This document shows, in pieces, positions 172 to 3,698 of a stretch of DNA of 5,949 bases (positions are counted from its first letter, which is position 1; every line of letters begins with the position of its first letter). Made by a program: the position numbers and the translations under genes. Source of the DNA: Candidatus Desantisiibacteriota bacterium (lineage in GTDB: Bacteria; JACRDZ01). The notes under the pieces were generated by a model. The model did no database searches. It was given only the letters and a program-made list of their open reading frames with translations, and was not told where the DNA came from. The stretch lies in assembly GCA_016209155.1 (NCBI GenBank), contig JACQWU010000178.1:1-5949 (forward strand). Direction: 5' to 3'.

Positions 172-358
172 TTAATACCTGAATCTTGCACTTCAGATTC
201 ATAAATCGCCAATACATTCCGAAATCCTGCGTCTTCGGCAATTTTGCTCCTCACCGTACTGGGTAAGTACGGTTACGTCATAAAATCACCTGACAGACTT
301 GTTTTTCGGGTATCTTGGCGATTTTACCTGAATCTGAAGTGCAAGATTCAGGTATTAA
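172..358. repeat. 187-bp palindromic element with about 40-bp terminal inverted repeats
   Basis: The left arm (172-212) and right arm (315-358) are inverted copies. The outer 30 bp (TTAATACCTGAATCTTGCAC onward) match perfectly, and after a 1 versus 4 nt bulge another 10 bp (AAATCGCCAA) match. The middle continues the fold: 237-260 pairs imperfectly with 266-290, ending in an 8-bp perfect stem (253-260/266-273) with loop GGGTA. The whole segment can therefore form one long hairpin or cruciform. Both ends carry TTAA (172-175 and 355-358), which could be a target duplication or just part of the palindrome. It has no transposase, so it resembles a MITE or a large intergenic palindromic repeat. 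The minus strand has a 34-codon open stretch (272-168) with AEDAGFRNVLAIYESEVQDS, probably incidental. Confidence 0.75.
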
Positions 359-2598: not shown

Positions 2599-3015
2599 AT
2601 GAATAATATAAAAAAAGATCAAAAATTTTTATATGTAGATAATCTACGGGTATTTCTAATAATACTGATAATTATGCTTCATATTGCCATTACTTACGGT
2701 GCCTCCGGGAGATGGTATTATTATGAACATACAGAAAACCTGTTGTCAGTGGTGCTTCTTACGGTTTTTTGCGCAGTGGTACAGTCTTTTAGCCTGGGAT
2801 TTTTCTTTATGATAGCAGGTTTTTTTACACCAGGCCCATATTCAAGAAAAGGGGCAAAAGACTATATGAAAGGAAGGATCAAGCGCCTTGGCATTCCTTT
2901 TCTTTTTTATTGCTTTTTAATAAATCCAGCCATACTGCACATCTTATTTGTTGTTTTGAAAAAAAAATCTATAACTTTCTGGAATTATTTCGGTTCAGTC
3001 CGTTATGGTTTGTAG
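2599..3015 (+). CDS. Acyltransferase-3 family membrane protein, N-terminal part (frameshifted)
   Basis: This is the N-terminal third of a multi-pass O-acyltransferase of the Acyltransferase-3 type (OatA/OpgC-like), enzymes that move acyl groups onto extracytoplasmic glycans. Arg17 and His28 form the family R-X10-H motif in YVDNLRVFLIILIIMLHI. A basic loop KGRIKRLGIPF (about 91-101) matches the conserved (R/K)RL-x-P segment. Hydrophobic spans lie at about 17-36, 48-75 and 97-120. An in-frame TGA at 2593-2595 fixes ATG 2599 as the only upstream start, but no Shine-Dalgarno is visible (TTGAACATTGAACT precedes it). The frame ends at 3015, and family-like sequence continues in the other frame. Full length would be about 366 residues, normal for the family. 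The substrate is unknown. Confidence 0.8.
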   Translation: MNNIKKDQKFLYVDNLRVFLIILIIMLHIAITYGASGRWYYYEHTENLLSVVLLTVFCAVVQSFSLGFFFMIAGFFTPGPYSRKGAKDYMKGRIKRLGIPFLFYCFLINPAILHILFVVLKKKSITFWNYFGSVRYGL

Positions 3016-3698
3016 AAACGTTGCTAATCTTCGCTTTTTTTTATCATTTTTGGCTAAGATATAGCAAAATGAAAATTCCCAAAATAAAAGAATTAACAAA
3101 TACGCATCTATTAATGTTTGCATTTGTGTTGACGATTCTTAATTTTATTATCCGTATATGGTGGCCCACCGGAAAAAATTTTTCAAATCTGCAATTTGGT
3201 TACTTTCCTGGATATATAGTTTTTTTTATTGCAGGGGTAATTGCTTATGAAAATAACTGGTTTCTGAATTTCAATGATTCTATGGGGATGCTTTGGTTCA
3301 AAATCTCCGGAGTACTTATTTTATTATTACCTGTGGTAATGATATTTGGCGGAAGTGTAAAAGACCTGAGTCCTTTTATGGGAGGGATTTGCTGGCAGTC
3401 GATGGTGTATTCTATGTGGGAAGCTTTTACGGGTACAGGATTAATTACTGGATTTTTTGTTATTTTTCGTAGAAAAATGGATTTTCAGAATGATATAACA
3501 AAATTTTTATCGGATAATGTTTATTCAGCTTATATTATTCACGCACTGGTCATTATATTTTATGCGTACGCGTTGAAAGACATATATATGCATCCTTTGA
3601 TCAAGTTCGTCTTTGTATCGGTTACCGGAGTAAGTTTATGTTTTTTAATTAGCCATTTTCTCGCAAGAAAAATCCCTTATCTAAAAAAAATCCTGTGA
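2910..3698 (+). CDS. Acyltransferase-3 family membrane protein, C-terminal part (frameshifted)
   Basis: This is the downstream two thirds of the acyltransferase begun at 2599. The first in-frame ATG is 2910, but residues from there to about the A9 tract (2959-2967) are an out-of-frame reading of the upstream half. Genuine sequence begins between about 2960 and 2996 and leads into FSPLWFVETLLIF, the family's typical (G/S)PLWF-x-x-x-LLIF span. About seven hydrophobic helices follow, including FPGYIVFFIAGVIAYE and ITGFFVIFRR. SDNVYSAYIIHALVIIF near the end matches the conserved S-x-x-x-Y-x-x-Y-x-x-H helix. Adding the N-terminal spans gives about ten membrane helices, as expected. One missing base restores a single frame, either A10 instead of A9 or a base near 2993. 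It may be non-functional, slippage-dependent or an assembly error. Confidence 0.75.
   Translation: MLFNKSSHTAHLICCFEKKIYNFLELFRFSPLWFVETLLIFAFFYHFWLRYSKMKIPKIKELTNTHLLMFAFVLTILNFIIRIWWPTGKNFSNLQFGYFPGYIVFFIAGVIAYENNWFLNFNDSMGMLWFKISGVLILLLPVVMIFGGSVKDLSPFMGGICWQSMVYSMWEAFTGTGLITGFFVIFRRKMDFQNDITKFLSDNVYSAYIIHALVIIFYAYALKDIYMHPLIKFVFVSVTGVSLCFLISHFLARKIPYLKKIL

Follow-up and report, generated by a model that had tools for sequence, protein, structure and literature searches.

A probable miniature transposon with a conserved folded interior and a population of solo palindromes in a Candidatus Desantisiibacteriota genome

The window analysed here is a stretch of 5,949 nt from a Candidatus Desantisiibacteriota bacterium (contig JACQWU010000178.1) that contains, near its left end, a long hairpin whose inverted arms (positions 169–201 and 329–361) are 97 % complementary. 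The stretch 165–365 has a folding energy of −54.4 kcal/mol, against −15.1 ± 2.8 kcal/mol for shuffled sequences (z = −13.9; 0 of 200 shuffles), so that the palindrome noticed in a sequence-only reading of the window is genuine and well beyond chance. The hairpin contains no ORF of at least 60 aa and no transposase. Further downstream, positions 416–486 contain two GTAG-tagged, minus-strand palindromes (GTAGTGCGAGACTTTAGTCTCGC and GTAGCAGGCGTGGCTCGTGCCTCGC) that form a REP dimer, with a similar dimer near position 1261 of L131; this REP system is separate from the family described below. ORFs 710–1549 and 1515–2459 overlap and may be a single gene split by a frameshift, and an 18-bp tandem repeat at 855–957 encodes a DTT-rich stretch. 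Two ORFs in 2599–3698 match the halves of one acyltransferase domain (PF01757), indicating a frameshift in this gene, close to a run of A.

The sequence-only reading had placed the boundaries of the element at 172–358. However, aligned copies end at CCTG and CAGG and leave TTAATA and TATTAA outside, which situates the element at 178–352, with the following parts (a strand is given for those features that were assigned one):

178–352, mobile element of 175 bp, CCTGAATC...GATTCAGG, with ends common to the aligned copies and the solo palindromes
173–177, left target-site duplication TAATA, corresponding to the 5-bp direct repeats around family members
353–357, right target-site duplication TATTA, with one mismatch to the left TAATA
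178–203, left terminal arm, itself a hairpin, here the complement of the right arm; its usual form is CCTGAATCTTGCATAGCAAGATTCAG
327–352, right terminal arm, which forms a hairpin of its own and has the sequence of the most frequent solo palindrome
178–186, copy 1 of the direct repeat CCTGAATCT, putative deletion endpoint
327–335, copy 2 of the direct repeat CCTGAATCT, putative deletion endpoint
203–324, minus strand, structured core, homologous to cores in other phyla
203–210, outer core stem, 5′ side on the plus strand, AAATCGCC, pairing with 317–324
317–324, outer core stem partner, GGCGATTT, pairing with 203–210
253–273, central hairpin, ACCGTACT...AGTACGGT
242–258, minus strand, most conserved motif, TACGGTGAGGAGCAAAA (minus-strand sequence)

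Across 24 bp of the element, the two arms of the window copy are perfectly complementary, versus 0–13 bp in the other copies, and the perfect terminal inverted run is of 12–13 bp in most full-length copies. It seems that conversion has turned this left arm into the complement of the right one, and the symmetry, which is what drew the attention of the sequence-only reading, could have arisen by template-switch correction inside the hairpin. The preservation of both arms had been thought to imply recent movement or selection on structure, a suggestion weakened by the apparently converted arm, by the differences seen in the other copies, and by the one-sided stem breaks that are common in solo hairpins.

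A search of the host assembly (3.08 Mb, 79 % complete) with the window copy identified 78 matches, palindromes matching on both strands, and the element is thus not single-copy. The fetched contigs contain nine near-full-length copies (164–177 bp), one copy of 96 bp, three truncated copies and around 35 solo palindromes of 26 or 27 bp, partial copies having been separated by hand in this count, and solos outnumber long copies by approximately 4 to 1. The whole element was absent from all 59 further genomes that were searched, three of them from the host's phylum; the exact solo palindrome had no match in GTDB contigs, nor its degenerate form in IMG/VR, and no match was found in plasmids or phages for the long element, or in plasmids for the element of a relative. 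IMG/VR matches to the central hairpin (L208–L210) were situated in other contexts and judged to be due to chance. No Rfam family reached its gathering score.

Identical 5-mers flank 23 of the 48 insertions in the host genome (mean of 7.2 and maximum of 15 in shuffles), a part of them being expected by chance because a bias towards TAWTA raises the chance level; the rarer pairs TACTA, TGATA, TCATA, TATTT, and TATAA also recur on both sides, and identical 6-mers flank none of the 48. By class, and including partial copies, exact 5-mer pairs surround 5 of 10 long copies, 13 of 26 right-type solos and 5 of 12 left-type solos, that is, 18 of 38 solos. The sequences next to other copies are TACTA, TGATA, TCATA, TTATA, and TATTT, among others, and the TTAATA and TATTAA around the window copy accordingly correspond to the target duplication plus chance. 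No empty site was observed. The TTAA target preference proposed earlier was therefore not borne out, since the duplicated site is 5 bp long, follows a TAWTA-like consensus in the host genome and has little fixed sequence among relatives, and a TTAA-type (piggyBac-like) element was rejected. The insertions occupy spacers or gene ends, frequently at a stop codon. On a crude ORF map (89 % coding), no insertion lies well inside a gene, and the five that overlap a called ORF were judged to do so at a gene end, in 5′ extensions or in a short ORF of doubtful reality; many solos begin 0–20 bp from a stop codon, and some copies lie between divergent genes. Likewise, the open stretches of the different copies vary in frame and length, with no conserved ORF, and this location and variability speak against the mobile reading-frame extender that had been envisaged.

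Since 5-bp direct repeats flank both copies and solos, the family is probably a MITE-like DNA transposon, non-autonomous and conserved in its structured core, whose solos would be deletion scars. Its description as a mobile palindromic element devoid of transposase holds, with many genomic copies and 5-bp flanking repeats. Correia, RUP, and ERIC elements duplicate a TA target. As occurs with MITEs, the family is short, non-coding and multi-copy, and has inverted termini and target-site duplications. It resembles the bacterial MITEs Chunjie, QMITE2, Correia, RUP, and ERIC in size (100–250 bp), lack of coding capacity and inverted ends, as well as in target duplications, location in spacers and the occurrence of truncated beside full copies, although the duplication is of 7–9 bp in QMITE2 (PMC10969869), versus 5 bp here and 5–6 bp in relatives. 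It differs from these MITEs in that its interior is kept between phyla and its ends are not, and in that its solos belong to two fixed deletion classes.

The origin of the solos was examined by predicting deletion products from direct repeats of at least 8 bases within each long copy. The repeat CCTGAATCT, present in both arms, predicts the product CCTGAATCTGAAGTGCAAGATTCAGG, found as 12 exact solos, and the repeat GCAAGATTCAG(G) predicts CCTGAATCTTGCATAGCAAGATTCAGG, found as three exact solos plus close variants; further solos match exactly the products predicted from variants. The two solo classes thus equal the products of deletion between 9–13-bp direct repeats of the arms, with retention of the flanking direct repeats. 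A third repeat, GGCGATTTT, predicts a product of 96 bp, and the 96-bp copy (L147) has this length and a similar junction, but is not letter-identical. Additionally, left-type solos end in G, while A is the usual last base of the left arm in long copies (p = 0.0045, from a hand tally), as expected if the last base of these solos comes from the right arm. In another lineage, placed in a different phylum and with unlike arms, we found a hybrid of both arms with TCCTT on both sides (L304, position 9331) and a second hybrid-arm scar flanked by GAAGG (L323), both of which fit deletion between other short repeats. Overall, the two solo types appear to be scars of near-precise excision. In near-precise excision of Tn10, short direct repeats are the endpoints of a deletion that spans inverted repeats and leaves a small palindrome in the original duplication (PMC12524634). 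Deletion here may likewise occur by replication slippage across the hairpin; the logic is shared with Tn10, although in our case there is a genome-wide scar population of a miniature element, known from sequence alone. The coexistence of long copies and scars within intact target duplications would constitute a natural record of near-precise excision.

The interior of the element matches a genome of another phylum (E = 2.9e-5; phyla of relatives are the taxonomic placements given by the genome search tool), and genomes in the family of the matched genome and in its sister family carry as many as 43 copies of motif TACGGTGAGGAGCAAAA each, with zero control matches there. A literature search for this motif gave no match. 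Identity of the ca. 122-bp core to the host copies is 83–88 % for G387, 77–81 % for G487, 75–80 % for G401, and 65–66 % for the type A elements of G387, with z-scores of at least 10 versus shuffles. In contrast, the ends of the elements differ, being CCCAAAAATAG...CTATTTTACGG in type A relatives versus CCTGAATC...GATTCAGG in the host genome. Judged by these comparisons, the interiors are homologous across phyla and the terminal arms are not alike. Type A elements are flanked by exact 5-mers in 19 of 46 cases (0.5 in shuffles) and by exact 6-mers in 9 of 46 (0.2 in shuffles), or 28 of 46 combined versus about 0.7 expected by chance. For 35 of 48 elements of relatives, the downstream gene shares the strand, a tally that was set aside because of the crudeness of the ORF map. 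In other genomes (L207, L218, L222, and L227), extra hairpins or repeats are inserted within the element, with the central motif intact.

RNAalifold on 14 cores, the insert of row G392_L290x having been removed by hand, yielded a single long stem with conserved internal loops. Under this consensus structure, which derives from the same alignment used for the pair counts and from sequences that are few and clustered, 96.4 % of the alignment cells pair and 14 of 32 core pairs are changed on both sides, with a covariation score of 0.399 (0.200 when shuffled and at most 0.10 when slid). These values lend good support, short of a formal test, to a conserved pairing in the core, and it is this interior, not singled out by the sequence-only reading, that does look conserved in structure. 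Columns with G-U outnumber those with A-C by 12 to 2 on the core strand across lineages (our own tally), with a modest excess of events inside two families (10:6 and 11:4), which at most hints at an RNA. The core may have been retained because the element or its mobiliser makes use of the fold, whether adopted by RNA or by single-stranded DNA. Non-autonomous elements are usually known by their ends, their interior being free; here, it is the ends that vary by lineage and the folded interior that is retained from phylum to phylum. This pattern suggests that the interior has a function, and it offers a case in which the idea of a mobile structured nucleic acid can be tested.

The best reading is that these are non-autonomous DDE transposons, with a core that is perhaps an RNA; the mobiliser would presumably be a DDE transposase, and the flanking 5-bp repeats are as left by a transposase cutting its target with a 5-bp stagger. 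In the host genome (79 % complete), no family member was seen beside a transposase with the same ends, and a full-length relative encoding one was not found: searches with 12 and 13 bp of the ends identified only palindromes of the family itself plus a small number of solitary sites, none of them paired at IS distance. An IS1380-type mobiliser, suggested by the CC ends and the 5 bp, was discarded, with PF13701 absent from this 79 % complete genome. The element's ends were also absent from four DDE_Tnp_1 loci of the host genome, which include an IS1182 and an IS1634 fragment, and from one rve locus that scored below the cut-off; no matching ends were found near the IS1634-like fragment (L172). 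In the part of two relatives that was sampled (570 kb), elements and scars were present, with no autonomous copy recognised. IS1634 elements have 5–6-bp direct repeats and a terminal C (PMC2266710), and because our element shares both, although it lacks a transposase gene, an IS1634-like enzyme is the best candidate, as a lead only.

The excess of solos over long copies, together with the six Y1_Tnp genes of the host genome, could suggest a REP/REPIN-like system, in which the 26/27-bp palindromes would be the mobile units and the long element two such units in inverted orientation around a captured spacer, with Y1 (RAYT) transposases mobilising it in single-stranded form. REP/REPIN sequences are also small spacer palindromes occurring as singles and inverted pairs (PMC3733652, PMC3116915), with a GTAG or CGTC tag at one palindrome end (PMC3733652). 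However, our palindromes carry neither tag, the six Y1 loci have neither the palindrome nor the element ends, and target duplications are foreign to the REP model; moreover, the hybrid scars of the other lineage join two different arms and a shared core cannot be a randomly captured spacer, making this explanation very improbable. Solo hairpins might instead transpose by themselves with the transposase of the long element, each arm acting as a complete pair of ends, since every arm ends in CCTG/CAGG-like sequences and solos show the same 5-bp duplications. We consider this improbable, because 26 bp is a very short substrate for pairing two transposase-bound ends, the left arms of long copies mostly lack the terminal G of the solos, and hybrid scars require deletion.

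The proximity of many solos to stop codons would agree with host regulatory hairpins, terminators or mRNA stabilisers, multiplied by their usefulness, with flanking repeats that simply reflect an AT-rich composition. This is hardly credible, given that the matching 5-mers vary from site to site and are above shuffles, unambiguously so in relatives, that copies also lie between divergent genes, and that only two deletion classes are seen. Finally, the covarying core, whose arms differ across phyla, might itself be the functional unit of a structured non-coding module, either RNA or folded single-stranded DNA, that spreads horizontally and contributes to host regulation or to its own transposition, a conceivable but unlikely scenario.

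Other repeats were detected in the host genome. A second repeat of ca. 150 bp (gtgccattaatac...aaataaataataaagaattcc...) is present at L127, L132, L138, L141, L152, and L166, with one copy adjoining a tmRNA gene (L152, 12999–13375). Another repeat, with ends GGGGCTGTCCAAAAAGGTG, occurs at L122, L155, L161, and L152; these ends resemble the end of an IS1182-family element of the host genome (L170, TAGGAGGCTGTCC), and the repeat abuts a truncated copy of the focal element in L155 and L122.
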